The notes beneath the pieces were generated by a model that was not told the origin of the DNA, did no database searches, and saw only the letters and a program-made list of their open reading frames with translations. A stretch of 64,000 nt of DNA from Chiridota heheva (lineage: Eukaryota > Echinodermata > Holothuroidea > Apodida > Chiridotidae), in NCBI GenBank assembly GCA_020152595.1, contig JAIGNY010001689.1, positions 186,001 to 250,000 on the forward strand. Reading direction: 5' to 3'. Below are positions 7,497-44,745 of the stretch, piece by piece. The position numbers and the translations under genes were made by a program. Position 1 is the first letter of the stretch. Every line of letters begins with the position of its first letter.

Positions 7497-7637
7497 TGGG
7501 CAAGACCAGGTCAGCTAGAGATGAATCTTCATCGGAAGGTGACAGTGATGAGGATACAGAGCAGGTGGGAGGTAACGAGAAGGAGCTAGAAATGGGAGAT
7601 GAGGAAGAGGCTGCAGAGACAAGGAAACAGTCTTCAG
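7497..7637 (+). CDS. Gene 1, exon d (acidic)
   Basis: A 141-nt exon, acceptor GTGTACAG, donor TTCAG|GTAAAA, phase 1-1. The 47 residues are strongly acidic and serine-rich (SSSEGDSDEDTE, EEAAE), with CK2-type phosphorylation contexts. Likely a disordered linker. Sequence after the donor (CCCCTTTTC runs) is intronic although the frame stays open to 7783. Confidence 0.65.
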
Positions 7638-8491: not shown

Positions 8492-8581
8492 ATAACGATT
8501 GGATGGATAGTGATGGTTATGAACCTGAGCAGACATATGATAGTGATGACAGTCGATCACAGCCTCATCACTCAAAGAGAA
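8492..8581 (+). CDS. Gene 1, exon e (acidic, precedes module 1)
   Basis: A 90-nt exon, acceptor TTTTTTGCAG, donor GAGAA|GTAAGT, phase 1-1. Codes for 30 residues with alternating Asp/Ser (DSDGYEPEQ, DSDDSRSQ) and a basic end (HSKR). A similar acidic exon (20549-20749) precedes module 3, which suggests that the acidic exon and module were duplicated together. Confidence 0.65.
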
Positions 8582-10209: not shown

Positions 10210-10881
10210 ATATTCTAAATGGTGGGATGCATTTGAACAAAGATCTTCCTGCACAGAGGAATGCATGTTGCACGTCTTGCTGTGCATCTTTCTCTGTGTC
10301 CTCCTGTGCATGTTCCTATCGTAAGAAAGATGACCTGTTCTACTTCCTGAACAGCGATTGTCTTGTTTCTTACACGGATGATCCTGTATTTCAGCAAACT
10401 ATTCTTGACTTTTTTCATGAGAATGCCACTGGAAGTTTATGCACAGAAGATCAAACCATGAAACGAATCGGGTGGGTACTTTGGAACCGCAGGAAATCAA
10501 ATGCTGGTAATTTCGAACAAGTTGGAATGGATATTCAGAATCTAGCGGATTTGTATCAGTTATACCAGAGTGTGGACAGTACATCCACTGACGTATCAGA
10601 CATGTTTAGAAAATCTACCTTCAAAAAAGTGCTGAATTGTATTGAAAAGATAAGAAGCAAAGGTCAGGGATCAAGTGCGGAGGAAGATAATGCTCTGCGA
10701 ACTCTGATAAGGAATGCTGCTGAGATCGTTCTAGGGCGATGGATCGTGTCAGAGGAGGCAGAGAAAGCAAAAGATGTCAAGGAGTTTATCAAAGAGTTTC
10801 TTAACAGAGAGAATGAGATATTTAGCACCAAAAAGAATGTCACAAATTCCTTGAAGAAAAGCAAATCTACACCTGCATCAG
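10210..10881 (+). CDS. Gene 1, module 1 exon (degenerate knuckle + helical region)
   Basis: A 672-nt exon (224 codons), acceptor CTTCACAG, donor CATCAG|GTATGT, phase 1-1. It corresponds to the second knuckle and helical region of modules 2 and 3, with no first knuckle. The knuckle (codons 20-36) keeps C-x2-C, but the expected His is gone and extra cysteines appear (CCTSCCASFSVSSCACS). After it, DDPVFQQTIL and GSLCTEDQTMKRIGWVLW align with DDPEYSDTIL and GTICSSDRYLVLIGRAMW in module 3. The rest (LADLYQLYQS, DVSDMFRKSTF) is predicted helical and also matches module 3 (ISDMFRSSTL). Probably a paralogous copy that no longer binds zinc in the same way. Function unknown. Confidence 0.8.
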
Positions 10882-12313
10882 GTATGTCATATCAGCTCTT
10901 ATCACCATAGTGTTTTTAATTTTCAACATTGTGTAAGAATGTGAGATTAAAAAAAGAGATCAGTATGATATGTTGTTGTCCAGTACCTACGTCAAAGATT
11001 TCAGGGTTGAAATTGTTCAGTACAAGTTACAACTTGGCAAGGTTTCTCGCGAAACGCTATAAGAATTTGAGCTCATAAACCTCTCCTTGCTCGCCATGAA
11101 ACAGCTCATCCCATTCTTAGTCTTTGTCATGGTCAATGAAGTCCTTCATGAACATGTTCCCTGCTACATGTCAGATTTACTTATTGTTGAAATTGATTTT
11201 AGGTTAGATAGTGCCTTTGCAGAAGACCACATTCCAGCCAGATGTATATTTCATTCTGTGTCCCTCTTTCCTCAAATTTTTGGCCCTAAAATTAATGCAA
11301 ATGTCATTTCCACTGACATTAATGATCAGTTTGGAGAAGATTTTAAATATTCTTCATTAGAGTCAGCTCTTTCAGGGAATTCTAGCATGAAAGGTGCATA
11401 AATTGTTTTCTTAGGGCAATTCCAGTTTATTGTATTTGTCGGGGAAAAATATGGTATTGAAGAGAAATGGAAGGAAAATAAACACGTGGTTAAAGCTTTT
11501 TAATGTTTTTTTGAGTGAGCACATTCTTTTAAAAATTGTTTTAGAAAATGACCTCAAGCCGAGTTTAACTGAACGTGATTTCTTCAGTATTTCGACCAAT
11601 CAAATGTTGGGGAACTTTTTCTTTGTTTCCCAACCAATCAGGTGTAGTTTTGAGGGGAAAATGATAAACAGCAATACTCATGCTTATTTCCTTGATGTAT
11701 AACGCACGTATGACACGTGCGCTTGAAAACATTTTTTCATATGCTTGGTCTCATACTGTGCATGAATTGTGCAGACGGCTTAGATTCCCCCAATATTTGA
11801 TTGGTCAATAAGATTCCCCTAGTTTACGATAGGTCTATTATGGACATGTGAATCTCGGCCATGTGACATTATTTATATTATTTTCCGGAGATTGCCGATT
11901 CAGATTTGAAAAGGTCTATAGCTATTTTTATTATTTTGTATATGTATGTCTAGCACACATATTGTGGCAGCAAAAGCAATAGGATAAATGTCCTTTCAGA
12001 TGCCACATATTTCCATACAACGTGAGCATACTGCCTAAGGACGAAGTGTGAGAACTTTGGGACATACTGGAACAAGGGAAGGGTGTAAATGGAGGGGTGG
12101 GGACATCCTAATAATGAACATCAAATCATGAACATTCAATTTTAATTTAACTACTAATTTTGATGAAGTTGTTTCCTATGTTGATAGTATTTTGATTTAT
12201 TTACATTTTAAAACATTCATGTTATTACACATTGTAGATTTGGAAATGCAAATTCTTGAAAGGATTCTTCAATTTCTTTTTTATTTTAAATTTAAAACAT
12301 GATGTATTTTCAG
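10882..12313. other. Intron between modules 1 and 2
   Basis: AT-rich. Open frames at 11087-11401 and 11430-11702 have no recognisable domain, no good splice borders and no paralogue in the window, so I leave them uncalled. Confidence 0.45.
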
Positions 12314-13231
12314 GTGGAAAGAAAAAAGCCACTACAAAGGATAATCAAGGGAAGTCTGTGGCCAGTTCTTCCAAGAAAAAACCTTGCAGGTGCTGTCCAT
12401 TTTGTTTTGGAGTTCAAGTGTTTGCAAACATTTCCAGACACATCATGCAGGGACATAAGGATCAGAAAGTAGTCAGGGATGCTATTAATCTACCATATGA
12501 TCAACGGTTAATCAGATTTGCTGAAATCAGAAAACTTGGAATATTAAAGTGGTACAAGAGACTTCTACAAAACGATCCCTCAAAGTTTCTGACACAAAGA
12601 GCTAGAAAAGGGGGAAAGATCAGTATTATATGTTCCTGGTGTAAAGGCTGCCTGACGGAGAACTCTGGCCGTGCACATAAGAAAAAGTGTTTGTCGAGGA
12701 AGTCAGAGGAACAACCATTTTTCATTCCTTTCGATTTGCTAAGTGGTGGAGAAGAGGATCCCACATTTACAGAAAATATCTTGAACCCCCTCTTGGAGGA
12801 TGATATTGGGGAACTCTGTGTCTCGGACTACATCTTAAAGAGCGTAGGGAAGGTCTTATGGAAGAGGAAGAAGGGTTTTGGGAGATGTAGCGGCAGTGTA
12901 GCCAATAAAGTCATCCAGGGCATGAAAGGTCTCGCTATTCTTCTTAAAAATTACAAAGAGAAGTTTCCGAAAGAAGAAGTCAGGGATTTTGCTGACTTGC
13001 TCAAAAGATCGTCCGTGGATAAGATAATCACAGTCATTTCTGTTGTCATGAAAACTAAGAAATATGTGAAGCATGCATTGAAGAATCTTCTCCCGTTGGC
13101 AGCGAAAATTGAAGCGGAACGACACTTGACCATTAGAGGGGAAGAACAGGTTCGCGAAATTGGAAGATTTTTATCGGAATTGTCTCTGAAGGTGCCCACA
13201 ATACTCGGAAAGCCAAGTGTTATGGGCTTAG
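12314..13231 (+). CDS. Gene 1, module 2 exon (complete twin-knuckle module)
   Basis: A 918-nt exon (306 codons), acceptor TATTTTCAG, donor TTAG|GTAAGT, phase 1-1. Best copy of the module. After a Lys/Ser-rich linker comes knuckle 1 at about codons 28-48 (C-P-F-C-x11-H-x4-H), a helical spacer with LIRFAEIRKLG, and knuckle 2 at about codons 107-126 (C-S-W-C-x11-H-x3-C). The helical region follows: DPTFTENIL, DDIGELCVSDYILKSVGKVLW, then predicted helices to the end. From general knowledge, twin knuckles plus this D-E/D-I-x motif and a C-terminal W-S-x-x-E-K domain recall large uncharacterised families in fish, cnidarians and lancelets. I infer zinc and nucleic-acid binding; the helical part has no identified activity. 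Confidence 0.85.
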
Positions 13232-13265
13232 GTAAGTGGAAGAAAACACTTATAAAGAATATATT

Positions 13266-13545
13266 AAAAAGGGGAGAGGTGCAGTAGTTAAGGAGTCATG
13301 CTCGTATGCATAAGGTACCGAGCTGGACTCACATCCTGAGTGATGCATTGTGTCCTTGATCAAGACTTTTTACTTGCTCCAGTCCACTCAGCTGTAAAAT
13401 AAGTACCAGCACTGCTGGGAAGTTAACCCATGATGGACTGGAATCCCATCCAGGGGAGCCATGTGCTCTCATCCACTCACGCCAAGAAAACCAGGTGTTA
13501 GCACCCGCCTGGTGCCTTCCTGGCCCAAGTAAGGATTTTGTTAGA
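13266..13545 (+). mobile_element. tRNA-derived SINE, plus strand
   Basis: An A-box-like GTGCAGTAGTTAAGGAG and a degenerate box B (GCTGGACTCACATCC) head the element. The shared body follows: TTGTGTCCTTGATCAAGAC, then CCACTCAGCTGTAAAAT, then GATGGACTGG. It begins only about 35 nt after the module 2 exon, in the intron. Confidence 0.75.
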
Positions 13546-13709
13546 TATATTAAATCGGGAATATTTTGAGATTTATTGTCAGTTTCATGTATTTTAGCCT
13601 TTTTTCTCTTCATTCAAAATAGCTTGTTCAATCATCCTTTAAGTTATTCTTCATTGCTAACCTGGCAATATAAAGTCCAGAAAGTTATGTTTTATTTTCT
13701 CTCCTTTAA

Positions 13710-14778
13710 CCCTTACTCTACCACGCGGCGATACTATCGCCGATTTCAAACCACCTTTTTCTAAAAATAAAATCGGAACTTTACCACAGTCCTATACGAG
13801 TGATCTTGGTATCATTTAAAAGTACTCAGATAGTTCTTTCATAAAATGAAACTTTTGTGTAGAGGTTATATTACATAATTTTTAGAAAAATTACATCGAA
13901 AAATGGTAAAAATCAATAATTGCTAAAAAAATTGCATTTTTTTTTTTTTTTTCTTTTAAATCTTACAATAATTGCAAGATTACATTTTTGCTTCAAAATC
14001 AAACACGAAAGTCCTAAGAAATTATAGTATTGGTTTCTGGTATAATTCTTATAATCCCTACGTCCAATCTTTTGTTCTAGTGAAATTTCTGCAAAATTTC
14101 ATGAATTTCTGCCATTTTTGGCCGGTTTTGTTCAAAAAATCGTGAAACCCAAACCTCACAACACGCATGCTTGGTTGAACCGCCGTTCGAAAGCGCTTGA
14201 AATTTCCTTTCATTTGACATATAAATAAAGGCATACCCCCCTCTATTTAGAACCTATCCTGTAAGAACAAAATTACAGCTACTCAATTTCAACGATCACG
14301 TAGCGCAGGGGAAATGTACGCGACTAGCGTGCGAGCGCTCCGGGTTCGAGTCCCGCCGTGGCCACTGCGTAATTATTTTTCTGCTGCAGCTTTCATGGGA
14401 CGTTTGACTTTTATCATTTTTGATGATAAAAGCTTACCCTTTCTTTCTAAAAAATGTAGGTTAGTATCATTAGAAAGGAAAGTTCAAAATAAATCTAAAT
14501 ATGTAACACAAATCTCTGTTTTCAATACTGACAAGAAGTTATACTTCTGCAAAGATTGACCATTTGTTGACCAAATTTAGCCAAAAATTGCTTAATTTGC
14601 ATAATTCTGTCTAATATTTCCTAAATTGGTTTTAATTACTCAAAAGCTAAATAACTTAGCATCTATTCCAACCAAACTTGTAACGAAAGAAAATGAAAGG
14701 AAAGTTGTCAAAAAAGCATAGAAAAAAAAAGTTACGAAAATTGGGGTCGCTATTTCTAAAGCCCTGGTAGAGTAAGGG
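13710..14778. mobile_element. piggyBac-like TTAA element (non-autonomous)
   Basis: TTAA at 13706-13709, then CCCTTACTCTACCA; TGGTAGAGTAAGGG, then TTAA at 14779-14782. CCY-type ends on a TTAA target duplication are typical of piggyBac. The left sub-end has a GGCGATACTATCGCC palindrome shared with two 100-bp copies at 25.3-25.6 kb. About 1.07 kb, no transposase, and it carries a tRNA-like sequence inside. Confidence 0.8.
14294..14366 (+). tRNA. tRNA-like sequence (pseudo-tRNA or SINE head)
   Basis: An internal box B GGTTCGAGTCC (14343-14353) closes a T-arm-like stem, and TAGCGCAGGGGAAA resembles box A. The 5' GATCACG pairs with 3' CGTGGCC except for one mismatch and one wobble. The D and anticodon arms do not fold cleanly and I cannot assign an anticodon. 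Because it lies inside a transposon it is more likely a tRNA-derived passenger than a working tRNA gene. Confidence 0.4.
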
Positions 14779-15210
14779 TTAAACTAAGCAGAGAAAAAAA
14801 TTGTACATCAAATGTATTACATCCAACCAAATTTGAATAAACCCTGGAATAATTAGGCCCAAAATGGAATATTTATGGAGTTATGGTCAGATTTTATGAT
14901 ATTACTATATTCAATCACACCTGAAATCCAGACGCCATTCCACCACATGACACACAGGCCATCACACTTGACATCCAGAAGACATCCCACCACATTTTTA
15001 TGTACATTTTAGTATTCTAGCTTGGGTTACCTCTAAAGGAGTTTCACTTTGGTTCCTTTTGCTTTATCATGAAATTCATGGCTAGTAGTGAAGGGTCATT
15101 GAGAAGTAACATTTTAGGAGGAATGTTTATAGGCAAATTGCTTGATATCACATTTTATTTCTCTGATATGTTAAAATATGCTTGTTTAATTCTTATTTTA
15201 TATTTTTCAG

Positions 15211-15906
15211 GTGTTGTCGACCTTAGTAAAAGTGATGACATCTCCCATGGAAACCAGGTGCCACAAGAAGGACATGTTATTGATACATCAGCCGAGGGGA
15301 ATACACAAGAGGAACAACTGGCAACTGGACTATCATCACAGGTACCCACAATGACACCAACAAATCCACCTCAAGTTGCACCACAGATCATCGCCGCATC
15401 AGCAAGCGATGCATCACCAACTGCAGAACCATCAACACCATCGGCTGACCCACCACCATCAGACCTGCTTCTGTCAACCTCAGTTGGAAAAACTGCACCC
15501 AGTTCATCATCAGCACCACATTCAGATGGAACACCACCATCCTGCAAGTCACTGACTGATCCATTTTCAACCAATCCAGCTTCTTTAAGGGGGATACCCT
15601 TAGTAGAATCACCATCTGGTGTGGCTCTTAATCGTGGATCATCTTCAAGTGAACCTTTAGAAGATTCACCAATATCAGTCAGACCTTCGCCAGCTAAATC
15701 ACTGTCTTTTAATTTTCAAGAAGGTGGTTCAGACTTGACTCAACCATCACACAAGAAGCTGCATGTGGCTCATCCAACATTACTGGCTCAGTCTGTTTCA
15801 CCATCTAAACAGTTACCATCAGCTGAACCATCAACTCCACCATCATTAAGTGAAGTACCATCAACTCTACCATCGTCATCAGCTCTGCCCGCATCTTCCA
15901 ATCAAA
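15211..15906 (+). CDS. Gene 1, Pro/Ser/Thr-rich exon
   Basis: A 696-nt exon (232 codons), acceptor TATTTTTCAG, donor TCAAA|GTGAGT, phase 1-1. The frame is open further upstream (to 15069), but the strong pyrimidine tract and phase favour the acceptor at 15209-15210. The exon starts with VVDLSKSDD, a hydrophobic core followed by acid/serine as in SUMO-interaction motifs. The remainder is Pro, Ser and Thr-rich (TPTNPPQVAP, STPSADPPPSD), surely disordered. No enzymatic motif. Confidence 0.7.
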
Positions 15907-15969
15907 GTGAGTTTTTTTGCTTTTTGATTTAAAATGTGCAAGAAGTATCTTATAAAAGACACACAAGTT

Positions 15970-16626
15970 ATAATGCAAATATACTGTATATATGAGACTT
16001 GCATGATTACAATGCAAATAGGGAGCACATTGCACTGTGTATATGAGACTTGCATGATTGCAGTGCAAATAGGGAACACATTGCACTGTATGTATGAGAC
16101 TTGTATGATTGCAATGCAAATAGGGAGCACATTGCACTGTGTATATGAGACTTGCATGATTGCAGTGCAAATAGGGAGCACATTGCACTGTGTATATGAG
16201 ACTTGCATGATTGCAATGCAAATAAGGAGCACATTGCATTGTATATATGAGACTTGCATGATTGCAATGCAAATAGGGAGCACATTGCACTGTGTATATG
16301 AGACTTGCATGATTGCAATGCAAATAGGGAGCACATTGCACTGTGTATATGAGACTTGCATGATTGCAATGCAAATAGGGAGCACATTGCACTGTATATA
16401 TGAGACTTGCATGGTTGCAATGCAAATAGGGAGCACATTGCACTGTGTATATGAGACTTGCATGATTGCAATGCAAATAGGGAGCGCATTGCACTGTGTA
16501 TATGAGACTTGCATGATTGCAATGCAAATAGGAAGCAGGTTGCACTGTATATATGAAACTAGCATGATTGCAATGCAAATAGGGAGCACATTGCACTGTG
16601 TATATGAGACTTGCATGATTGCAATA
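15970..16626. repeat. 51-bp minisatellite, about 13 copies
   Basis: Unit TATATGAGACTTGCATGATT / GCAATGCAAATAGGGAGCAC / ATTGCACTGTG. Because 51 is a multiple of three and the unit lacks stops in several frames, frames of up to 284 codons arise on both strands (15934-16788, 15805-16596, 15879-16616). These are not genes. Copies are very similar, so the array is recent or homogenised. It begins about 65 nt after a gene 1 donor. Confidence 0.9.
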
Positions 16627-16652
16627 AAAAGTAAAAAATACTTATTTACATG

Positions 16653-16737
16653 TTTAAAGGAATATTCCTGTGAATTCTCATTTTCATATATAGGATATCT
16701 TTTAGGAGTTATTGCATTTCAAAGATTTCACTGGTGT
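16653..16737. mobile_element. Single arm of inverted-repeat family B
   Basis: TTTAAAGGAATATTCCTGTG followed by GGAGTTATTGCATTTCAAAG matches the left arms at 28041 and 59621. The right arm is missing. Confidence 0.6.
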
Positions 16738-16740
16738 TAT

Positions 16741-17036
16741 AATAATAATAATTCATTTTTAGGGGACCATCTATCTATGCAAACGTAATCCAAGGTGTAG
16801 AGAAATAAAAAAAAAAAAAAGGAAATTGCCCAGAACATGAAAAATACATATGACAAACACCAGGAATATAAAGAGTCAATCATAAGCAATGGTGAACAAG
16901 TATGTTTAAGATTGTTCTTAAAGGTATCCAAAGAAGTGCTACAGTGAATGTTCAATGGAATAGAGTTCCATAGTTTAGGTGCATCTACAGAAAAGGCTTT
17001 TGTACTAGAAGCTGAAGTTTGCAGTTCCAATGTCAA
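16741..17036 (-). mobile_element. CR1/L2-like LINE 3' coding end, minus strand
   Basis: The minus-strand frame has AFSVDAPKLWNSIPLNI and SLDTFKNNLK, the usual C-terminus of CR1/L2-type reverse transcriptase ORFs, and ends next to an ATT microsatellite (16739-16752 on +), the typical 3' tail. A fragment only. Confidence 0.75.
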
Positions 17037-17057
17037 TGTTTATGTATTTCTTTGAAA

Positions 17058-17477
17058 ATACACCAGTTCACAGTTCCAGTCTGCTCATGCACACAAGTAC
17101 ATTTTACCTTGACTTGCGAGTAAGCAAACCAGACAAGTGCACAGCAAATAAACATACAATGAGCGCACAGCAAAATACGCTCTTGGTGCATGCATTGTAT
17201 CATTGCACGTTGTTTAGAAAAATGCACATTGTACATGGCCTACGGTTATAAATTCAGCCATAATTACACTGTCTGTGTTAGGACGACATGGGGTTTTTCC
17301 CGATGACTTAATGTTACCTAAAATACTTAAAGTTACATAATACATTAAGAAAATTGAAAAATAGAAGCGACAGAATTTTAAATAAAGTGACTAAAAATGT
17401 GTTATCGTTGCATTTAATAGGAAAATTGTTTGTTTACTTTCAACTCAAAATGGTGGATGAACTGTAAACTGGTGTAT
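17058..17477. mobile_element. Short inverted-repeat element, family D
   Basis: Begins ATACACCAGTTCACAG and ends GAACTGTAAACTGGTGTAT. Reverse-complement relative of 9402-9807. It sits directly beside the LINE fragment at 16741-17036. Confidence 0.75.
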
Positions 17478-17499
17478 AGGGTATAGCATACACTCAGCA

Positions 17500-17595
17500 A
17501 GAATATTCTTGCCCATCTTCTCATGTACCTTACATTCTAAATGTTGGCACCTTTGACCCTTGACTGTCACAGTGCCATTAAGCCCTATCAAACAA
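17500..17595 (+). mobile_element. LINE 3'-end fragment
   Basis: Only the last part is kept: TTTGACCCTTGACTGTCACA then GTGCCATTAAGCCC and ATCAAACAAAG, the shared LINE terminus. Confidence 0.6.
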
Positions 17596-17720
17596 AGATT
17601 CTAAGAAAAGAAAAATCCTTTTTCGTTTCTAGAAATAGATAAAGAATTATCTAAGAGTTATCTTATGACATAACACTTTACATGGCAAGGTCACTTTGCA
17701 ACACACTTTACAAATCTTTA

Positions 17721-18241
17721 AAATGTAATATCTCCTGAGCGGAATAAAATGTAATAACTCCTAAGCGGAATAAAATGTAATAACTCCTAAGCGGAATAAA
17801 ATGTAATAACTCCTGAGCGGAATAAAATGTAATAACTCCTAAGCGGAATAAAATGTAATAACTCCTAAGCGGAATAAAATGTAATAACTCCTAAGCGGAA
17901 TAAAATGTAATAACTCCTGAGCGGAATAAAATGTAATAACTCCTAAGCGGAATAAAATGTAATAACTCCTAAGCGGAATAAAATGTAATAACTCCTGAGC
18001 GGAATAAAATGTAATAACTCCTGAGCGGAATAAAATGTAATAACTCCTGAGCGGAATAAAATGTAATAACTCCTAAGCGGAATAAAATGTAATAACTCCT
18101 AAGCGGAATAAAATGTAATAACTCCTAAGCGGAATAAAATGTAATAACTCCTAAGCGGAATAAAATGTAATAACTCCTAAGCGGAATAAAATGTAATAAC
18201 TCCTAAGTGGAATAAAATGTAATAAATCCTAAGCGGAATAA
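17721..18241. repeat. 26-bp minisatellite, about 20 copies
   Basis: Unit GGAATAAAATGTAATAACTC plus CTAAGC. Copies differ mainly at one A/G position (CCTAAGC or CCTGAGC). Each unit contains AATAAA, so the + strand carries about 20 poly(A)-signal hexamers inside an intron of gene 1. Confidence 0.9.
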
Positions 18242-19119
18242 GATATTGTCATGGTTTTTCTCACCAGTTTGCTTATATAACTGTCCTCTACCATATAAAT
18301 GAAAATACACTGGAATATTAAAGTTAAAATTGCTCCTTTGTATTGAAACAGCCATTGTTGCATAGCGTGAAATAACACAATGTGCACTCTGAGGACATAT
18401 CATTTCTATGGTGATAGAGCATCTATGGGGGCAAGAAGTGCCCTCCACCTCTGGGGGGACAGAGGGGCGGGAATGCCTTTCCTGGATTCTGAATTACCTC
18501 TTTATGCATTAACATGTCCTTTTTATAGTAATTATGCAGAATTGTTCCTGTTTTTGGTCAATTTTGCATAATAATCAGCCAAATTGGGTCCAAATTGACA
18601 ATTACATTTTTGGTTCACATGCAAGGCATAATGCGAACTTATGTAATGGCAATTTCGTTTAGCCAGCTGGCCGTCCACAGTTTTCCCTGAGATTTTCTCA
18701 GAAATGTTAAAGTTTTTTGAGAATTTCTCAGAAAGTGTTAAAGTTTCTTTAGATATCCTTATGGAAGGTTAGAATTTCCTTACAAAATGTTAATTTTTTT
18801 TAGAGACACTTAAGACAGATTGAAGACTAGTTTCCTTAGAAAGTCTACAAAACATTCGATATTTCCTTTGAAGATAACTGTAAAATGATATAATTTTCCA
18901 TTATTCTTCAGAGATCCTCAAGCATTTCTCTCGAACCACTGGAGATTTAAAATCCTTAAAATTCTTTAAAGTATTTGGGCACCAACGGTTGTATCAGGCA
19001 TGATTATTAAACTCTGCCATTATTATTGTGGTAATTTGCATAAAGTTGCTACAGTATATGAACTGACCAGACTTTTTATTTATGTATGCTCAGTCAGGGA
19101 ATGTTACTGCATATGGACA

Positions 19120-20199
19120 TGGGGAGGGATGCCATGTGGGTCATGCGGGACATATGATATAATATATACCATGTGGTATACACCAAGGGCTATATCAGGA
19201 ATAATTATTTGACTCAATTTTTTCTTCTTCTTATTCAACAGTTCATTTGCATATAAGTTATTTTAAGAACTGACACTTTCATACATAGTTTGCTCAATCA
19301 GGGACTGTAATAGCTAGAATGAGACATTTTATGGAGCCTATGGAATGTCATGTGGGACATGGAGTGGGATGCCATGTGGGACATGGGGTGGTATGCCATA
19401 TGAAACGGGATGGAATGCCATGTAGGATATATGGTGGAATGCCATGCGGGACATAGGGTGGAATGCCATGCGGGACATAGGGTGGGATGTCATGTGGGAC
19501 ATGGGATGTCATTTGGGACATGAGGTGGGATGCCATCTGAGACATGGGGTGGGATGCTATAAGGAACATGGGGTGGGATGCTATAAGGAACATGGGGTGG
19601 GATGCCACGAGTAACACAGAGCATGACATAGGTTGGGATGCCATGTGTGACATAGGGTAGGAGGCTTTGTGGGACATAGTGTAGGAGGCCATGGGGATGT
19701 GGGACATGGGATGTGATGCCATGTGGGACACAAAGTAGGATGTCATTGGGACATTGGGAGGAATACCATGTGGAACATATTGTGGGATCTAATGTGAGAC
19801 AAGATGGTATGCCATGTGGGATATCAGGTGGGAAGCCACTGATGTGGGTCATACGATGGGATGCCAGGGGGGACATAGGGAGAGATGCCATGTGGGACAC
19901 AGGGAGGGATGCCATGTGGGACATAGGGAGGAATGTCATGTGATACATATGGTTGGATTAATGTAGGACATACATGTAGGATGGGATCCATGTGGGATAT
20001 AGGGTGTGGGTCATAGGGTGTGATGCCATGTGGGACATATGGTGGAATGCCATGTAGGACATGGTAGAATGCCATGTGAGACATACTGTATGGTGGAATG
20101 CCATGTGGGAGATATGGTAGAATGCCATGTGGGAGATATGGTAGAATGCCATGTGGGACAAGGGTTGGATGCCATGTGGGACATGGGATGCCATGTGGG
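19120..20199. repeat. Degenerate GATGCCATGTGGGACAT minisatellite
   Basis: Over 1 kb of imperfect repeats with the core GGGATGCCATGTGGGACATG and spacing of roughly 20-40 bp. The open frames on both strands (such as 19348-19746 and 19824-20225) are repeat by-products. Confidence 0.85.
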
Positions 20200-20548
20200 A
20201 CTTTTTTTATAATTGGTAGGGTCATATGATATGGGTGTCAATTTGCATGGGCATGACAGTATTTACCATGGCTTTTCAGATTTTTGTGCAAATAAAACAG
20301 GAAAATTAATGAATATTGGATGTGTAATTTCAACCAGCGTTGCCCTTTCACATAAGAAGTGCCCCTTTCATGAGCCTTGCCCACCTGCCCTTTTGACATG
20401 CAGTCGTTCCTGATGAAAGCTCAACAACTTACTTAAAAACTTTTATTTCAAAGCTTTTCATAGCTCATTATAAAGCACTTTGACCTATTGGAGGCTGTAT
20501 AAATGATCGTCATGAAGCATTTCCTGATATATTACTTTATTCTTTCAG

Positions 20549-20749
20549 TTCATACAAGATCTTATGATGCAGTGCCTAAATACGAAACACGTAGGAAAAC
20601 ATCACAAAGAAGCAGACCAAGGAAAGAAATGGCTAAAGATCCAGACTTCAGCACTGATGATCTAGACTTCAGCGCTGAAAATGACAATGATTCTGATTCA
20701 GATTCTGGAAGTGATCGAGACTATGCTGAGTTTTACAGCGATATAAAGT
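20549..20749 (+). CDS. Gene 1, acidic exon preceding module 3
   Basis: A 201-nt exon (67 codons), acceptor TTCTTTCAG, donor AAAGT|GTAAGT, phase 1-1. First half basic (RRKTSQRSRPRKE), second half very acidic (DPDFSTDDLDFSAEN, DSDSDSGSD). Parallel in position and composition to the exon at 8492-8581. Confidence 0.7.
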
Positions 20750-21319
20750 GTAAGTGCTCAATGACACTTAATTCAGAACAATTAGGAGAATATTCTCTAT
20801 TTCAGTCTTTTTTTCAAAAAAATTGAAATAATTTTCGGTAAATAAATTGTAAATTGTTAAAGGAAAGGTATCGTCCCATAAATACATTCAGAAATAAATG
20901 CCACAGTGCTGGTAACGTCACTAATAGTGTTCATTTTTTCCTATTGATTGCGAAAAATCTGCGAAAATTCCACATTATGATGGCCCCAAAGATATATTGT
21001 TGAATAAACGCTCTGAACTAGTATCCAGCTGCCGACACAAACCCAAGTACAAGCTCATTGAATATGGCATCACTTAAACGGATTAGCCACCCACTGGTGC
21101 TTATCATTCATTCCTTGCTTATTGTTTAGAAACCAGGATGTTTTAATGTAGTCTGAAAATTGCCTCTAACAAGAGCTGAGGTATGAAACTGACAGTTACT
21201 ACAAATGGAGTATTAAAGTAAACTGAAACTGCGTTTTTACATTTTCTCATTAAATAGTTCTTCAAGAATGATAGAGCGTATTTTTAACACACAGTATTTT
21301 AACTATATGCTTATATAAC

Positions 21320-21321
21320 CT

Positions 21322-21413
<92 letters not shown>

Positions 21414-21658
21414 TATAATGTATATATATATATATAAATGGAAATTAACTGGAGTATTCCTTTACACCTTTGTCTCTCTTTCTTAATTTTCACAGGTATT
21501 CGCACAGAGAATTGGAAGAGACGTCCAAGTCCTCATAGATTTTGTCCATTTTGTGAAAAAGGCATTTCGGGTGGTATGTTGCGGAAGCACATCTGCCTTG
21601 AACACGATGATGTAGAGGAGGTGATGGAAGCCATGAAACTACCTTTAAATATAACTTT

Positions 21659-21737
<79 letters not shown>
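21320..21737. repeat. Two long (TA)n microsatellites
   Basis: (TA)n runs occupy about 21320-21440 and 21655-21735. The second lies inside what should be a continuous coding exon and forms the junction of a local duplication. Confidence 0.9.
21496..21649 (+). CDS. Gene 1, module 3 exon, 5' part (knuckle 1)
   Basis: Acceptor TTTTCACAG, phase 1. Encodes knuckle 1 of module 3: C-P-F-C-x11-H-x4-H at about codons 17-37, then VEEVMEAMKLPL, matching VVRDAINLPY in module 2. The coding sequence stops matching at 21650, where TA-rich DNA and a duplicate of the exon start intervene. Removing 21650-21944 would restore the reading frame to the 3' part, so the two parts were one exon. Confidence 0.75.
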
Positions 21738-21739
<2 letters not shown>

Positions 21740-21944
21740 ACATATATATAATGTATATATATATATATAAATGGAAATTAACTGGAGTATTCCTTTACAC
21801 CTTTGTCTCTCTTTCTTAATTTTCTCAGAGAATTGGAAGAGACGCCCAAGAGATTTTGTCCATTTTGTGAAAAAGGCATTTCGGGTGGTATGAGGAGCAC
21901 ATATGATTAGAGGAGGTGATGGAAGCCATGAAACTACCTTTAAA
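21650..21944. repeat. Tandem-duplication block interrupting module 3
   Basis: About 295 bp made of a (TA)n tract plus a second, damaged copy of the intron end, acceptor and knuckle 1 start (21739-21944 repeats 21406-21649). The second copy has deletions that remove the GTATTCGCAC after the acceptor and part of the His-containing half, and an in-frame stop. It may be a real mutation in this allele or an assembly error at the TA repeat. Confidence 0.7.
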
Positions 21945-23388
21945 GGAGAGAAACAGGAAGTTCTCTGAATTCAGAAACAGAGGAATATTTATGTACAATC
22001 TGAAATACTCCAAAACAGATCCATCACGCTTACAAAGACATCGCAGGCAGGCAGGGAATGATTCAGGTGAAATGGTTGTTTGCGGAAATTGCCTTGGGTA
22101 CTTGTCAAAGTCCTTTTCCTTTAAGCACAAATTCACATGTCCTTCAACAAGGAAGGGTGAGGATACGTATTTTATTCCAATGACCATGCTTAGAAAAGTG
22201 GCAGATGATCCAGAGTATTCAGATACAATATTGAAAAAATTTAATAAGGATGAAATTGGTACCATCTGTTCATCAGATCGCTATTTGGTGTTGATAGGGA
22301 GGGCGATGTGGGACCAGAAGAAAACGGAAGGAACCAGGAAGTATGACATCAGGAGGCGGGTCATGCAGTGCATGAGAAGAATAGCGACACTTTACAAAGC
22401 TTACCGAGAGACGCTTACGGAAGAAACGTCTCAGAATATCTCAGATATGTTTCGGAGTTCAACACTGGATACTCTGGAAAAGAGCATTGATTCGGTGACA
22501 AGAAAGAAAGGCGTGGTCATTTGTGGGTTGAGGATGGACATGAAGTACCTCATTACTATGAGCGCCAAAGCAGTCCAAGGAAGCTATCTGGTCAACGAGC
22601 AGGATGAGAAAGCGAAGGATATTGGAAAGTTTTATCAGGATTTTATGCTGCGAAGAGAGAGGATGTTTGGTGATAATAGTGCCAAAAATGTAACCGGTGA
22701 AGATTCTTCTGTCAAAATTCCGTCAAAGAATAATAGTGCCAAAAATGTAGTTGACCAAGATTCTTCTGCTAAAATTCTCTCAAAGAAATTTACTTCTTGT
22801 TTCATTTCTCTGCGGAGAGGGCGTTTTATTGAAGACACCAGAAAGGATGACTCTGGCCACTGGGAAACTAAGAAAGATGCGGTCAGAGATCTTACTATGG
22901 AAACAACTGCTACTGTGGAGAGACTTGCAGAAGAACATTCTTCTGAAAAGATAACTTTGACAGCTGAGCCCTGCCATACATCTGAAGAAACAATAGGCCC
23001 AAGAACTGTTAATGCACAAAATTTGACTGAATTTGTAGATAAAGTTTTTTGTGTTGAACATATATCTGATGCATCATTACACAAAGAGACCTTGATCCAC
23101 AGTGTTCCTGAGAGGGCGGCAGACAGTGCGATTGTCGGTGAGAATGTCTCAGAGCAGCAAAAAAATGAAGAGACAGTCTGTGAAGAATACGCAGACCAAT
23201 TGTCTCAGACTCGGAAGTCAATTGAAAAAGAGTCGATGGATGATTTTACCAACGAAACAGCTTGTTCACAGACCAGTCAGTCAAACGATGATTCCCCCAA
23301 AAATGATGGAATGAGTGAAGATGAGGAGTTTAAGGGGTGTGGTGACAGCAATCCTTTAAGAGGTCCCTGAGTAGTGAGGGTGGTGAAG
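21945..23388 (+). CDS. Gene 1, module 3 exon, 3' part (knuckle 2, helical region, tail)
   Basis: Open from 21916 to a stop at 23368-23370. Contains FSEFRNRG (spacer), knuckle 2 C-G-N-C-x11-H-x3-C (about 22081-22140), DDPEYSDTIL, DEIGTICSSDRYLVLIGRAMW, VMQCMRRIATLYKAYRE and ISDMFRSSTL, all matching modules 1 and 2. After about 22660 comes a tail unique to this copy: two NNSAKNV-D-SS-KI-SK repeats and a Glu/Ser-rich region. The end is uncertain. In the main frame a weak phase-1 donor exists at 23362|GTCCCT. One frame lower, coding-like sequence runs to a good phase-1 donor at 23388|GTAATT, which would need a one-base change near 23350. Confidence 0.75.
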
Positions 23389-24117: not shown

Positions 24118-24697
24118 TTTGAGTAAATTCCCAATGGTGGTCTTGACTAGTTAGCATTTCCCTACGGTGGTCTTGACTATTTAAAAATTCCTTACGGTGG
24201 TCTTGACTATTTAGCAATTCCCACGGTGGTCTTGACTATTTAGCAATTCCCTACTGTGGTCTTGATTATTTAGCAATTCCCTATGGTGGTCTTGACTATT
24301 TAGCAATTCCCTATGGTGGTCTTGACTATTTAGCCATTTCCTATGGTGGTCTTGACTATTTAGCAATTCCCTATGGTGGTCTTGACTATTTAGCCATTTC
24401 CTACGGTGGTCTTGACTATTTAGCATTTCCCTACGGTGGTTTTGACTATTTAGCAATTCCCTACGGTAGCCTGACTATTTAGCAATTTCCTACGGTGGTC
24501 TTGACTATTTAGCCATTTCCTACGGTGGTCTTGACTATCTAGCAATTCCCTACGGTGGTTTTGACTATTTAGCAATTTCCTACGATGGTCTTGACTATTT
24601 AGCAATTCCCTACGGTGGTCTTGACTATTTAGCAATTCCCTACGGTGGTCTTGACTATTTAGCAATTCCCTACGGTGGTCTTGACTATTTAGCACCG
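24118..24697. repeat. 30-bp minisatellite, about 19 copies
   Basis: Unit CTTGACTATTTAGCAATTCC plus CTACGGTGGT. A 30-bp unit gives open minus-strand frames with a ten-residue period (24211-24456, 24450-24695). No variable spacers, so it is not CRISPR-like. Confidence 0.9.
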
Positions 24698-32246: not shown

Positions 32247-32601
32247 TTTTACTCTTCAGCTTGGTATTCTTTCTTACTCTTTAGTTTGGTACTCTTTCTT
32301 ACTCTTCAGTTTGGTACTCTTTCTTACTCTTCAGCTTGGTACTCTTTCATACTCTTCAGTTTGGTACTCTTTCTTACTCTTCAGTTTGGTACTCTTTCTT
32401 ACTCTTCAGTTTGGTACTCTTTCTTACTCTTCAGTTTGGTACTCTTTCTTACTCCTCAGTTTGGTACTCTTTCTTACTCCTCAGTTTGGTACTCTTTCTT
32501 ACTCTTCAGTTTGGTACTCTTTCTTACTCTTCAGTTTGGTACTCTTTCTTACTCTTCAGTTTGGTACTCTTTCTTACTCTTCAGTTTGGTACTCTTTCTT
32601 A
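32247..32601. repeat. 25-bp minisatellite, about 14 copies
   Basis: Unit CTTACTCTTCAGTTTGGTAC plus TCTTT. Near-perfect copies. Open + frames with an eight-residue rhythm (32286-32698) are artefacts of the repeat. Confidence 0.9.
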
Positions 32602-33643: not shown

Positions 33644-33997
33644 CTGTAAAGAAGCCACACTTAAAGAAAAAGAAACAATGGAGACTGAAAGGGCTGCAAC
33701 AAAGAACAAAGTGGTCAGATGCTGAAAAGAAAGCGGTGTATTCTTCCCTAGGACATTACATTGAAGCAGGAATTTTACCAGGCAAGAAAGCTCTAGATGC
33801 GGCCATAGCCAGCAACCCTTCCCTCGCAAGACGGAATTGGTTGAAAATCAAATATTTTGTCAAGAATGTCCTTTACGAGGAACGACGCAGAGAACGATAT
33901 TTACGGATGCAGAGGGAGAAGCTTCAAATGAGTATAGCAGCTCTCCAAAAGGAACAGAACGTCAGAAAGCAGGACGAGGATATTTTTGAAATAGCTA
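33644..33997 (+). CDS. Gene 1, Myb/SANT-like exon 1
   Basis: A 354-nt exon (118 codons), acceptor GCATTGTAG, donor GCTA|GTAAGT, phase 1-1. A Lys/Arg-rich stretch (KKPHLKKKKQWR) is followed by KWSDAEKKAVYSSLGHYI, ILPGKKALDAAI and SLARRNWLKIKYFVKNVL. The W-S-x-A-E-K opening and the W-K-I-K end are the two helix-anchoring parts of a Myb/SANT-like fold. A charged coiled-coil-like tail follows (ERRRERYLRMQREKLQ). It is a clear paralogue of the last exon. Probable role: DNA or chromatin binding (inference). If the donor is not used, translation would stop at 34084-34086. Confidence 0.8.
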
Positions 33998-36389: not shown

Positions 36390-37620
36390 ACCGCCAGCTC
36401 GTAAACGCGATAAACATCAAGAACGGTATTGTGTATTCATGTCATGTGTGGTATACATACAGCCCATGGTCTGTAGATGTGCCCTATTGTTTTTGGTGGT
36501 GATGTCATGCATATTAATGAGTAGCCGGGGCTTAATCTGAAAATCTTGAAATGCTCTTATTTAAACAACCATATATCTGTTTTGTTTCATATTTGGTACA
36601 GTTATGATGTTATATAGTGTGTACATGTTCATGGCATGAAAACGTTGAATTTCATTAATATGCATAGTGGGTGGAGTTTAATATGATTTTGCTGAAAAGA
36701 GCTTGTAAACAAGATATCTAAAGAACGATAAACTGGATTTAGGTCATTTGTGGTACACAAATAGCTCATCGTCCGTAGATGTGCCCTATTAATTTTGGTG
36801 GCGATGTCATGCATATTAATTAGTAGGCGGGGTTTAATGTAAAAAAAACTTGAAATGCCTATATTTTAACAATCGTGTATATGTTTTGTTTCATATTTGG
36901 TACAGTGATGATGTTTGCTAGTGTGTAAATGTCACAGTATAAAAACGTTAAATTTTATTAATATGCATAGTCGGCGGGGCATAATATGATTTTGCTGAAA
37001 AGAGCTTGTAAACATGATATTAAAAGAACGTTAAACTGGATTCAAGTCATATGTCATACACATATTGCCCATGGTCCATAGATGTGCCCAATTGTTTTTG
37101 GTGGTGATGTCATGCATATTAATGTTTAGGCAAGGCTTAATTTAAAAAAAATGAAATGCTCATAATATAACAACCACATATGTTGTGTTTCATATTTGGT
37201 ACAGTTATGATGTTTGCTAATGTGTACATATTCATGGTTTAAAAACATTGAATATCATTAGTATGCATAGTGGGCGGGGCTTAATATGATTTTGCTGAAA
37301 AAAGCTTGTAATCATGGTATCTAAAGAATGATAAACTGGATTCAAGTCATATGTGATACACAGATAGCCCATGGTTTGTAAATGTGCCTTATTGGTTTTA
37401 GTGGTGATACCATGCATATTTATGAGTAGGCGGGGCTTAACCTAAAATTCTTCAAATATGATACATGAGCAACCGTATGTCTGTTTTGCATCATACTTGC
37501 TATGATAATGTTGTTAATTATTGTGCACATGCTAGTGTTGTCAATAGGTACAGTATGTCTATTTTATTGATCTGCATCATGCATGGTGGTCATGGCTTAT
37601 GAATAAATATCCTGGAGCAA
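36390..37620. repeat. About 301-bp tandem repeat, four copies
   Basis: Blocks GCTTGTAAACATGATAT, AACTGGATTCAAGTCATATG, CCCATGGTC, GATGTGCCC, GGTGGTGATGTCATGCATAT, GGCGGGGCTTAA, TCATATTTGGTACAGTTATG recur with starts near 36400, 36702, 37003 and 37304. The last copy decays. Open frames on the minus strand are repeat shadows. Confidence 0.85.
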
Positions 37621-39309: not shown

Positions 39310-42300
39310 CATCATGGACTCACCACAACATGAAACCTTACCTTAACCCTCCAAACACACCCAGAACACCTCAAAAGGACATCCTTTCCCCCGCAGTCTC
39401 ACTTTTCCTCCCATTACTCCCCTCCCTCTCTCCTTACAATTTCCCACCCCTCCCCACTATGGCCAAAATTGATCATTGTCTCTTCCCCCTGGTGATCCAG
39501 GCCTCAAAAACCTCTCCCCATTTGCCCTCACCAAGGCCCTGCTGGGTATCATTGGTACCCCAACCATAACAAACGCCCAAAATACGGAGACCTCCAGGTC
39601 AAATGTTCCACCTCTACCCAATCCAACTCCTCCTTGCCTCTACAACCCTTGCCAATATAAATGTCAAAATCATCCGCTCCCCCCATAGCTACCTCAATTC
39701 CTCCAGGGGGTAATCAAACACCATGATCTTCAGGAAACCCCCTTGAGGAAATAAAAACAGCTGAAATCACAAGGTGTCACCGATGTTCACCAACTCACTC
39801 TCTCTCGCAACAATACCACTATCCAAACCAGCACCTACTTCCTCACATTCAAGTCCTCTAGCCCCTACCTCCCTATCTACATTGGTTACTTCAACATCCC
39901 TGTCTCCCCTTAAATACCCAACCCTCTCAGATGCCACAACTGCCAAAAATTCGGCCGCAGGAAAAACAACTGCCACTCCTAAGCCTGATGTGCTGCTTGT
40001 GGCTTCCCCTCCCATGATCATACAAAGTGTTAAAACACCCCTCCTCGACAGTCAGGGGTAAACACATTGGAAACTTTCTGAACCACCACAACCTGTCTCC
40101 TCAACGGCTCTTACTTGCACACACTCAGGAACAGGCACCTTTACCAGCATCAATCTCTCCATCTGCGACCTCTCCCTTTTTGTAGAGTTCTCTGACTGGA
40201 GAGTACACCCTTCGCTCTGTGGAAGTGACCATTTCCCCATCCTCATATCCACCCTCCCCTACCCGCCACATCCTTTCCCTACAAACTGGAAATTCCAGCA
40301 TGCAGACTGAAATCTTTACTCCACAGTTTATGCAACATCTCTATCACCAATGATATCCTCCTCTCCAACAACCCCATCTCTCTCTTCACTTCTAAGGTTT
40401 AGGAAATTGCCAGTTTTCTTTCCCCACTTCCTCCTTCACTCAGAAGAACTTTAAACCTTGGGTTACCACTGAAAAAAAAAAAAATCTCTCTTAAGAACAA
40501 AGCCCTCCGTCTCTTCAAAACCCACTCATCTTTCCAAAACCTGGATAACTTCCGCATTCTCAGAGCCAAAGCCAGAAAGACCATCAAACTCAGCAAAAAG
40601 ATCTCTTGGGAAACCTATATCTCCTTTTTGGATCTCCAGACCGCCCTTTCCAAAGTCTGGAACATGATCCAAAACTTCAAAGGGAAAAGCACCTCCATCA
40701 ATATCTCTCACCTCATTCATAACAAACCAAAATCACCAACCTCAACGACATCTCCGACTGCTTAGCCTCCACTTTTGCAAAACCTCCTCCAATGAGAGTC
40801 TTTCCTACTCCTTTCGTAATTTGAAAATCGAGGCTGAGAAAAACTTTATTAACTTCCAGTCCAACAATCAGGAAAACTACAACCTTCTGTTCACCTACTT
40901 TGAGCTCCCCTCCGCCCTCAAAAATTCTGGGTCCTCTTCCCAAGGCCCCAACAGCATCCACTATAATCTCCTCAAAAACCTTCCCAGGACTTCTCTCGAA
41001 ATTTTACTTAAGATCTACAACCACCTGTGGTCTTTTAGAACTTTCCCCAACATTTGGAGAGAGGCCATCATTATCCTTATCCCCAAGCCCAACAAAGAGA
41101 GATCCATTCCCACCAATATTACCCCATCGCTCTCATGTCCTGCCTCTGCAAGATCATGGAACGTATGTTCAATTATAGACTTTGTTGGTACCTTGAGAAC
41201 TTCATTCTCTCCTCATCTCAAAATGGTTTCAGGAGAAACCAGAATTGCCTGGACCATGTCCTCAAACTAGACACCTATGTCTGTGAAGCCTTCATAAGAA
41301 ATCACCACATCATCTTTATCTTCTGTGGCCTTGAAAAGGCCTTTGACACCACCTGGCAGTATGGTATTCTGAAGGACCTACACTCCTCTGGCCTCAAAGG
41401 TTTCCTTCCAATCTTAATCCAGAACTATCTTCATTCTTACCATTTCAGGGTGCGCATAGCTAACACAGGAAGGTATGCCCAACACCTGGGTGTCTCCCAA
41501 GGCAGCATTCTCTCCCCGTCTCTTTTTATCCTCAAAATCAACAGCATCACCAAAGCCCTCTCTCCCCAACATCAAGTGCACTCTGTATGTGGACAATTTT
41601 GCCATTTTCTCGTCCTCCCCATGCTTCCATTCCCTCCAAAATAATCTTCAAAAATGCCTGGACAACTTACATGTAACTCAATGAAGTGACACCAATGGTT
41701 TAAATTTCTTCAAAGACAAAACTGTTCTCATTCATTTTAACAACAGCAATTCTTTCGTCCTTCGTTCCAATCTCTGTCTCAAAGATTCCATCATTTCCAG
41801 TGAAGATAGTTCCCTCAAAATCACTCTCAATTCTAAGCTCTATTATCTCCACTACATTAACATCCTCAAAACCAAGTGTTACAAAACCCTCATTCTTTTC
41901 AAGGTTTTTTCCAGCACTGACTGGGGAGCCAATCGTCTCACCTTGCTCACCTTATATCGCTCCCTTCTCAGATCTAAGCTGGACTACGGCAACTTCATCT
42001 ATAGCTCTGCCTGCAAACTTTACTTGAGGCACATCGAGGTCATCGAAAACACTGCCCTAACAATCTACCTTGGCGCCACCCAAACCACCCCTATCTCGTT
42101 TTAATGTAGAAGCTAATTAACTCCCCTTGACCCTGGGTGCACCAGGGCTTGTCTCTCCTTCACTCTTTGCATCCTCACTGATCCACTGAACCTATGTGTC
42201 CATTCCACTCGCTCTCCTTCCTTCACCAACCTCTTTAATCTCAACAAATGCATCCCTCCACCTTTCAGTATCCGGAAGCATGCTTACTTTCCCAAATCCA

Positions 42301-43445
42301 ACATCAACATTTTCTTAATAGCCAGGCACACTCTCCCTCCCATTCCCACCTGGGTTATCCCTCACCCCCTCTCCCCTAAGTTTTCCCTGGCCTTACCTCC
42401 TACACAAAAGCACTTCACAACCTAGCCTTCTTTCGCTCCAAATACTGTCAACTCAGTAGACACTTCCATGACTACTCCTTCCTCTTCACCGACGGCTCTA
42501 CATGGGAAGGCTTCTCTGCAGCCGCCTGTCCCGGCCTCGCCCTTTCTTTAAGGTTACCAGATGGGAGCCTCCATCTACTCTGCTGAAGCAAGGGCTATCC
42601 TCCTAGCTTTAAACTTCCCAAAACTCTTCTTCCGCCCCTGCTTCTCATCTTCTCTGACTCTAAATCCGTTCTCACAGGCATCCATAACATGCTCTGGTCT
42701 AATCCACTAATCTTACAAATCTTCCTCAGGAAAGAAAATCATCTTCTTCTAGATCCCTAGTCACATCGGTATCTCCAGGAATAAAAGAGCCAACAATGTT
42801 CTGTCAAACCACATCTCACCTATCCTTATTCTGCACTTTGACTTCCGCTTCAACATTTCCAGCTACCTCAGGAAGACTCCTGGAATCTTGAGACCAGTAA
42901 CAAACTTCACTTGTATCAATCCCAAAGTCAGGACCAACCCTCCCTTGCACAGTCACAATCACAGAGAGGACGTTGTTGTCACCGCATCCGCCTTGGTCAC
43001 TCCTTTCTCACCTACTCCTACCTTCTTTCAGACTCTCCCAAACCTCTCTGCCCCCATTGCAACACTGATCTCTCGATCAAGCACATCCTCCTAACCTGTC
43101 CCTTATACCTGAACTCCAGATCACTTCTCTACTACTCCACCTTTATTTCTGACCTTGTCAAGAACAATCCTTCCTCCAACATCATCACCTCCCTCAGCAA
43201 TAGCAACTTATTCCACTTGATCTAATCCTTACCCACACTTCCCCCATTTTTTATCCTACCATCCTGTCCTTCCTTCCTTCTTATTACCTTGTTTTTGCAC
43301 CTTTATTATTTATACTATTTTTCTCTCCTTCCTATCTCCCTCTCCCATTAATCTCCGTCCTAAGTGTTGCACCTTAAACTTTTAACACCCTCTTGGCACA
43401 TTATACTCTTGTCTGTCGCGGTGCCGTTAAACATCAATAAACCAA
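39310..43445 (+). mobile_element. LINE copy A (RNase H-encoding, defective)
   Basis: Order of remnants: ORF1 with gag-like text (LTKALLGIIGTP) and C-terminal zinc knuckles (RCHNCQKFG and CAACGFPSHDHTKC, about 39930-40025, His lost in the first); endonuclease C-terminus with SDHFPILIS (about 40220-40250); reverse transcriptase (about 40800-41690) with EKAFDTTW and SQGSILSP but YVDN instead of YVDD; RNase H start (FTDGST, about 42487); and a CCHC end (CPHCNTDL...H...C, about 43050). Many frameshifts, and the first part of the endonuclease is missing. 3' end GTCGCGGTGCCGTTAAA then CATCAATAAA. RNase H after RT points to the I-type group. Confidence 0.85.
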
Positions 43446-43804
43446 ACCAGTACATTTTGTACTAGCACATTAGTGCAAATTATATCATCATTGACATGAT
43501 TTCAGCATAGAATTAGACAAAATGGGAGCGTCCATGTTACAAATTTAAACTTGTTTTTTAAACAATCTAACTTAGAAATTGTATAAAAAGATAAATAATT
43601 TGGCATCGTGTTTATATGTGTAAGTAATGCACTGTTCAAGGGACTTTTCACTCGCAAATGACCCTCCTTAAGTGGGGTCATTCCACTCGGGACAAAGACC
43701 CTTTCCCCCTGCATTAAATGAATTCATGATTTTATGATGTGTTTTTGGTAGTTGGTTTATTTTTTAATTCTCTATCATATAGCAAGCTAGACTATTTGAC
43801 TTTA

Positions 43805-43920
43805 TGTCCTTTAAAAGTGTAATTCAGAGATCAAGCAAGTCCATCTTATATGAGAGAGGACTTCAAAAGAGACAAAATGGTGAAAGAAAGAAAAAAAATT
43901 CAGCATCTTAGTCCATTATG
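43805..43920 (+). mobile_element. One arm of inverted-repeat family A
   Basis: TTTAAAAGTGTAATTCAGAG, TCAAGCAAGTCCAT, TTATATGAGAGAGGA and ACAAAATGGTGAAAG match the left arm at 3176 and 8738. Confidence 0.6.
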
Positions 43921-44147
43921 TGTAGTTGACCTGTTATTTGGCCCAAATGTTACCCAAAAATATCATGACAAACACTATAAAAGGTCAAACTATGAAAGGT
44001 CATGATAGGTCACCAGATTTGGGAGCTAATCCTTGAGGGAATGCCCCCAGGCTCACTCAATGGCTATTTTGGGTATTGCCAAATTTTTGCATCCTTAAAA
44101 ATATGTATGGACATACAAGTTTATGTTATATTTTGATAAGATTTTGA

Positions 44148-44697
44148 TGAATCAAGTGGTTACATTGAATCAAGTGGTTACTTTGAATAAAGTGGTTACA
44201 TCTAATAAAGTGGTGGCATGGAATAAAGTGGGAACCATTGATTGAAGAGGTTACATCACATAATGTGATTACATTAAACCAAGTGGTTACATTGAATCAA
44301 GTGGTTACATTGAACCAAGTGGTTACATTGAACCAAGTGGTTACATCGAATAATGTGGTTACATCAAATAATGTGATTACATTGAATCAAATGGTTACAT
44401 TGAATCAAATGGTTACATCAATCAATGTGATTACATTGCATAAAGTACTTTCAGATATGTTGAATAAAGTGGGTTACATTGAATAAAGTGGGTTACATCT
44501 AATAAAGTGGTTGCATGGAATTATATGGCAGAAAGTGCTTCCATATATGTTGAATAAAGTGGTTACATTTAATAAAGTGGTTATTTTTAATAAAGTGGTT
44601 CCATTGATTCAAGTGGTTACATTGAATCAAGTGGTTACAATGAATCAAGTGGTTACTTTGAATCAAGTGGTTTAATCCAAATGAAGTGGTTACATTA
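44148..44697. repeat. 18-bp minisatellite, about 30 copies
   Basis: Unit TTGAATCAAGTGGTTACA with variants (AATAAAGTGG, AACCAAGTGG, AATAATGTGA). It ends less than 50 nt before a gene 1 acceptor. Confidence 0.85.
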
Positions 44698-44745
44698 ATG
44701 ATTGAAAAATTACTTCATTCTTTTGTCATTTTTTCATTGTTTCAG

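Follow-up and report, generated by a model that had tools for sequence, protein, structure and literature searches.

What is the origin of a zinc-knuckle module that occurs three times along one stretch of the genome of the sea cucumber Chiridota heheva, and do the three copies encode one protein? The stretch comprises 64,000 nucleotides (GenBank assembly GCA_020152595.1, contig JAIGNY010001689.1, positions 186,001–250,000 of the forward strand) and is called the window here; coordinates are window positions unless a contig is named. We find that the modules are copies of one unit. On balance we favour the explanation that this unit corresponds to the N-terminal, non-catalytic portion of a Crypton-like family of tyrosine recombinases (YRs), and that the locus, probably domesticated, has lost catalysis and carries that portion in triplicate. 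An origin of the triplicated module in a YR-like family of the same genome can be proposed with fair confidence.

Three copies of one module

Modules M1 (10210–10881), M2 (12314–13231) and M3 (21496–23370), all read as exons of the + strand, are homologous copies of one zinc-knuckle and helical module, as a preliminary description of this DNA had proposed. Smith-Waterman scores are 154 for M1 with M2 and 221 for M1 with M3b, the continuing piece of M3 (each against a maximum of 57 in 500 shuffles), and 316 for M2 with M3b (maximum 61 in 500 shuffles). Pairwise identity is 26–28% (BLASTP).

M2 carries both knuckles, C-x2-C-x11-H-x4-H and C-x2-C-x11-H-x3-C, then DDIGELCVSD and GKVLW; its helical region after the knuckles spans about 150 residues. 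Knuckle 2 of M3 has the same pattern and is followed by DEIGTICSSD and GRAMW. It lies in the M3b open frame (21907–23370, 487 residues), which goes on through the helical region into a long acidic tail and ends at a stop. M1 was said to keep the later part only; this holds for the helical region, to which a C-x2-C, the sole remnant of knuckle 2, must be added, while knuckle 1 is gone. The identical spacing claimed for M2 and M3 is confirmed at knuckle 2, but knuckle 1 of M3 fits only when two pieces are joined by eye.

These two pieces belong to a damaged start of M3. An intact knuckle 1 (CPFC-x11-H-x4-H) is found in the copy at 21496–21657, which enters a (TA)n tract (21658–21769) and ends at TAG. 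About 335 bases downstream, from 21829, the same intron end and exon start appear again, with several deletions (21829–21906) that destroy knuckle 1 and shift the frame before the module continues to 23370. The double start is either a real partial duplication around the microsatellite or an assembly fault that placed two versions side by side. A protein search of the assembly with M3b gave a single copy at 100% identity, so no second haplotype contig is seen. In all relatives of the module where knuckle 1 is readable (genome stretches L029, L031, L050, L055 and L056; L-numbers denote stretches that were read out and C-numbers contigs), it is two residues shorter (x9), and the x11 spacing is therefore common to M2 and M3. 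In L031 the first histidine of this knuckle is replaced.

Under a simple base-composition model, open frames of 223, 305 and 487 codons have chances of 6e-8, 1e-10 and 2e-16. Tandem repeats in the window also yield long frames; the modules are not repeats of that kind. Third bases at four-fold sites of identical residues agree in 2/14, 5/20 and 9/28 cases (16/62 in total), about the saturation level. Because the frames stay open although silent sites are saturated, the module protein appears to have been under selection, at least until recently. In a tree of ten module rows, M1, M2 and M3 fall outside a group formed by L029, L031, L036, L041 and L050 and are not resolved among themselves; support for that group (81/99) is below the program's mark, and the program warned of long branches.

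Relatives in the same genome

The genome searched has 1.1 Gb, and row counts here and in the analysis of order below include all matches at E up to 10, many of them weak. M3b found 17 rows, three of them inside the window. Others lie on C3628, C2056, C3695, C1389, C3367 and C2268 (E 6e-13 to 2e-5), and the module rows outside the window stand singly except for a tandem pair on C2268. One further row, weak alone (E 0.19), is L055 (C1681:178001–186000), on the same contig and strand just upstream of the window. It contains both knuckles, the helical part preceded by a long acidic insert, and degenerate YR boxes, with an R-box that reads FNKPSG.

L041, L050 and L056, like L055, have the helical region followed by a stretch with YR boxes. 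At L056 (C2268:435001–443500) canonical splice sites link two coding pieces in phase. This locus holds two tandem family genes about 4.3 kb apart, whose compared YR pieces are 94–95% identical; the pair is either a recent duplication or an assembly effect. L142 has a 581-residue open frame, running off the end of the stretch read, that includes knuckle 2, the helical region, YR boxes and a SANT-like end. Its R-box is FFNRRRPREI, followed later by TKLRKHIAT, ASHMGH and HREYYR; we read these as the corresponding boxes of the tyrosine-recombinase superfamily.

As read from these coding stretches, the family layout in this genome is two zinc knuckles, a helical region, a YR domain and a SANT-like domain. 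The window shares with it the homologous N-terminal module and, downstream, a SANT-like domain in two + strand exons (33644–33997 and 51955–52886); no YR domain was found after a module in the window. The related single-module proteins that the preliminary description had mentioned for other animals were found within this genome, mostly as single rows and several with a YR-like domain after the module. Similar uncharacterised proteins presumably occur in fish and other animals.

Ten of the 40 SANT-like rows follow a same-strand YR row within 10 kb, where 0.013 are expected, and the reverse order was found at none of 67 YR rows, a count that is a lower bound and consists partly of repeats. A module stands upstream of 8 of the 67 (seven loci); a YR row stands upstream of 1 of the 17 module rows, at the tandem pair on C2268. 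Five of the ten YR–SANT pairs share a spacing of 1.63–1.67 kb and are perhaps copies of one element. A Crypton is a mobile element, found as dispersed copies, that codes for a YR and no reverse transcriptase; on this point the comparison covered the dispersed YR and SANT-like rows with their repeated spacing. Among the 40 SANT-like rows, L012, L013, L014, L016 and L023 are near-identical repeat copies containing a broken SANT-like stretch with stops.

Nature of the recombinase-like domain

The domain of the relatives is likely, but not proven, to be a tyrosine recombinase, an assignment made because profile–profile comparison and boxes point the same way. Compared with 86 Xer, Fim, Int and Cre sequences, the YR profile scored 35.6 (P 2.5e-4); the match covers 64 columns in the central part of the domain, and none of 60 column-shuffled controls exceeded 19.0. 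With L142 left out the score was 29.3 (P 0.0023), against 21.2 in 40 controls. Comparisons of single sequences were weak (L142, P 0.066; L056, P 0.019). Among 177,635 PDB sequences the profile matched only XerA at E up to 10 (E 0.055), and L056 alone matched XerA (E 0.34) and a designed protein (E 0.47). In NCBIfam, L056 matched a tyrosine-recombinase model (E 0.098), second to an unrelated ATPase (E 0.089); its second copy, 95% identical, did not match that model.

Pfam gave no match above cut-off for nine pieces and one long frame, and did not name DUF3504 in the pieces scanned. The nearest Pfam match of the YR domain was DUF3294, at 20.5 bits against a cut-off of 20.6. A PHROGs search with five YR pieces gave one match (E 0.08), to a family of unknown function.

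None of the 67 YR rows of the genome falls in the window, and eight catalytic queries found nothing there below E 0.17. The sole R-box-like scrap lies on the opposite strand (51103–51053, E 1.6). A catalytic domain with the R, H/K, R, H/W and Y boxes of the XerC/D-like superfamily was thus not found in the window.

Searches with the modules themselves against Pfam, NCBIfam and PDB sequences gave nothing trusted, and M2 had no Pfam match. A match of TIGR03123 to M3b (E 0.00045) reached 19.5 bits where the cut-off is 244.1, and it was rejected as a chance match of helical sequence. In viral contigs the module profile gave 20 pattern matches, none of which was confirmed. Structures were predicted for M2 and for the SANT-like domain. 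For M2, the AlphaFold model has a mean predicted local distance difference test (pLDDT) score of 70.9, with about 80–90 across most of the helical part and 34–72 over residues 1–130; the zinc ligands, in this weakly modelled portion, precede the main helical bundle. A helical core-binding fold is suggested by a single observation, the position of the region before the YR domain in relatives.

Proposed exon layout of the locus

One gene for a large nuclear protein, as the preliminary description had suggested, with the M1, M2 and M3 exons spliced together, would be consistent with the phase-1 borders of the candidate exons, all on the + strand. M1 has a phase-1 acceptor at 10210 and donor at 10881, and M3 a phase-1 acceptor at 21496. 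M2 has a phase-1 donor at 13231; its acceptor failed the pyrimidine filter of our script and was taken from reading the sequence. Between M2 and M3 lies a possible Ser/Pro/Thr-rich exon (15211–15906) without a family match, with phase-1 acceptor and donor around an open frame; a possible acidic exon upstream of M3 (20549–20749) is likewise open with phase-1 borders. Upstream of M1 are two possible acidic exons (7497–7637 and 8492–8581), both open frames with phase-1 acceptors and donors, and a tentative, short, basic exon (2453–2557) that has a phase-1 acceptor at 2453 and a weak donor after 2557, below the script's threshold. These sites were selected among other candidates, and the module exons of L055 and L056 also begin in phase 1, so the shared phase is no proof of one transcript.

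The SANT-like pair follows the modules at 33.6 and 52.0 kb, also on the + strand. Exon 1 (SANT1) has phase-1 borders (33644 and 33997) and a three-helix model, and is 46% identical to exon 2 (SANT2), which has a phase-1 acceptor at 51955 and a tail coded by 21-base repeats. By Foldseek alone the SANT-like model had no significant match (best E 1.2, a homeobox).

The window also holds repetitive sequence. The tail of SANT-like exon 2 (52308–52868) consists of imperfect 18–21-base repeats with GQDDVGQ-like units. Directly after the Ser/Pro/Thr-rich frame, a 51-base unit is repeated 12.6 times (15983–16625), with both strands open, which gives long false open reading frames. Further tandem arrays lie at 17719–18241 (26-base unit), 24126–24694 (30), 32249–32601 (25) and 36435–37447 (about 303). 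Broken frames resembling non-long-terminal-repeat retrotransposons, with stretches that by eye resemble reverse transcriptase and RNase H, lie at about 40400–48000 (+ strand) and 53500–54500 (– strand); L055 also holds sequence similar to them.

Competing explanations

Several results weigh against derivation of one catalysis-free gene from the YR family. Foldseek and VIA searches with the M2 model gave no recombinase among the matches listed. The earlier hint of a recombinase connection is upheld by sequence and by gene layout in the relatives, but not by the M2 model, which matches no solved recombinase. Since the helical part has no match among solved folds, the holding of DNA at several sites is something that we infer. 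In direct comparison with L142, scores exceeded the maximum of 300 shuffles for M3b (81 vs 65), L041 (80 vs 62) and SANT2 (54 vs 53), but not for M1 (41 vs 57), M2 (60 vs 62) or SANT1 (51 vs 57); M1 and M2 are therefore tied to the YR family by way of M3 and intermediates such as L041 and L050. The statistics of order are weakened because repeat copies and shared spacing make the YR and SANT-like rows non-independent. M3b has no good splice donor and may be the final exon; the SANT-like exons would then be part of something else.

This missing donor also fits an arrangement to which we give slightly less than an even chance, in which the modules are divided among two or three distinct genes of the family in tandem, or one gene and remnants, with one or two modules each. 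M3b may then end a gene, and M3 lies 8 kb from M2 with an acidic exon of its own. The family does form tandem genes, as seen in the near-identical C2268 pair and in L055 just upstream of the window. Separate genes are harder to reconcile with the borders of M1, M2, the exon at 15.2 kb and the acidic exon, which are all in phase 1 and joinable, and with the good donor that the 15.2-kb frame has just before its stop. We consider it unlikely that the modules are decaying remnants of YR-family transposable elements without host function. L031, L036, L041 and L050 do carry in-frame stops, the start of M3 is damaged, and the even spacing of five YR–SANT pairs is as for dispersed element copies. Yet the module frames are long and open at saturated silent divergence, loss of the YR after each of three modules is unlike random decay, and the catalytic queries found no trace nearby. 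Very improbable, finally, is an unrelated C2H2-type zinc-finger gene that resembles recombinases only through its knuckles. No C2H2 model of Pfam matched above its curated cut-off, the best being zf-Di19 on knuckle 1 of M3, a sub-threshold match that would speak for such a gene (E 0.0037, 17.9 bits against 27.5); likeness to the YR-bearing relatives, however, extends through the helical part, and family SANT-like exons lie downstream.

Discussion

If the locus derives from the YR family, the full form would have comprised two zinc knuckles, a helical region, the catalytic domain and a C-terminal SANT-like domain. The catalytic domain would then have been lost here and the N-terminal unit brought to three copies, one without working knuckles, with two SANT-like exons downstream and the exons spliced into one protein. 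Tyrosine recombinases grip DNA from opposite sides with two domains, the N-terminal helical one and the catalytic one (PMC3537659). The N-terminal unit alone, present several times, could hold DNA at several places uncut, and the product would be a nuclear regulator attached to DNA at two or three sites that leaves it uncleaved. In line with the several nucleic-acid-binding units of the preliminary description, the knuckles, helical unit and SANT-like domain would each bind DNA; knuckle-less M1 may make a protein contact instead. A bolder version, which we regard as a long shot, has one host protein combine the three DNA-binding units of recombinase origin with the SANT-like domains; it would recognise the ends of the transposon family from which it descends and repress or bridge them, again with no cleavage. 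If true, the transposon's recombinase would have been made into a silencer with several DNA contacts, and the ancestral family is still in the genome.

Domesticated recombinase parts are a known kind. The nearest relatives, the YR-like family of this genome (L142, L056, L055, L041 and L050), share zinc knuckles, a helical region with the D..IG/D..L..G motif and a SANT-like domain; its members have a YR domain and one module each, whereas the window carries three modules with two SANT-like exons, and no YR was found in it. The closest precedents that we found elsewhere are the Crypton-derived DUF3504 genes and the ALOG proteins. The former (KCTD1, KIAA1958, ZMYM2/3/4, QRICH1 and WOC) are animal genes from tyrosine-recombinase elements that have lost catalytic residues and often have extra DNA-binding domains (PMC3212892). 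They keep a degenerate YR domain, whereas at our locus no YR was found and the part preceding it is multiplied. The plant ALOG domain proteins, from DIRS-like retroposons, are regulators that retain a tyrosine recombinase's N-terminal DNA-binding part but not its catalytic domain (PMC3537659). ALOG has a zinc ribbon inside the helical domain, whereas in the window two knuckles appear to precede the main helical bundle, in a portion of the M2 model that is weak, and there are three copies and SANT-like exons.

Our literature search, with many journals and all annotated animal genomes beyond its reach, returned work on Crypton, DIRS and ALOG but no described family with the full layout seen here. 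A term search of PMC10027918 found no mention of Crypton or recombinase; PMC4495291 deals with TMPO and ZNF451.

Among the domesticated recombinases compared here, DUF3504 genes retain a single, degenerate catalytic domain and ALOG proteins a single N-terminal domain for DNA binding. A triple N-terminal unit without a catalytic core would be an instructive example of how an enzyme of a mobile element can turn into a scaffold. The locus further leads to a family of considerable size in this genome that bears tyrosine-recombinase boxes (at least 67 rows) and had no Pfam match above cut-off in the pieces scanned.

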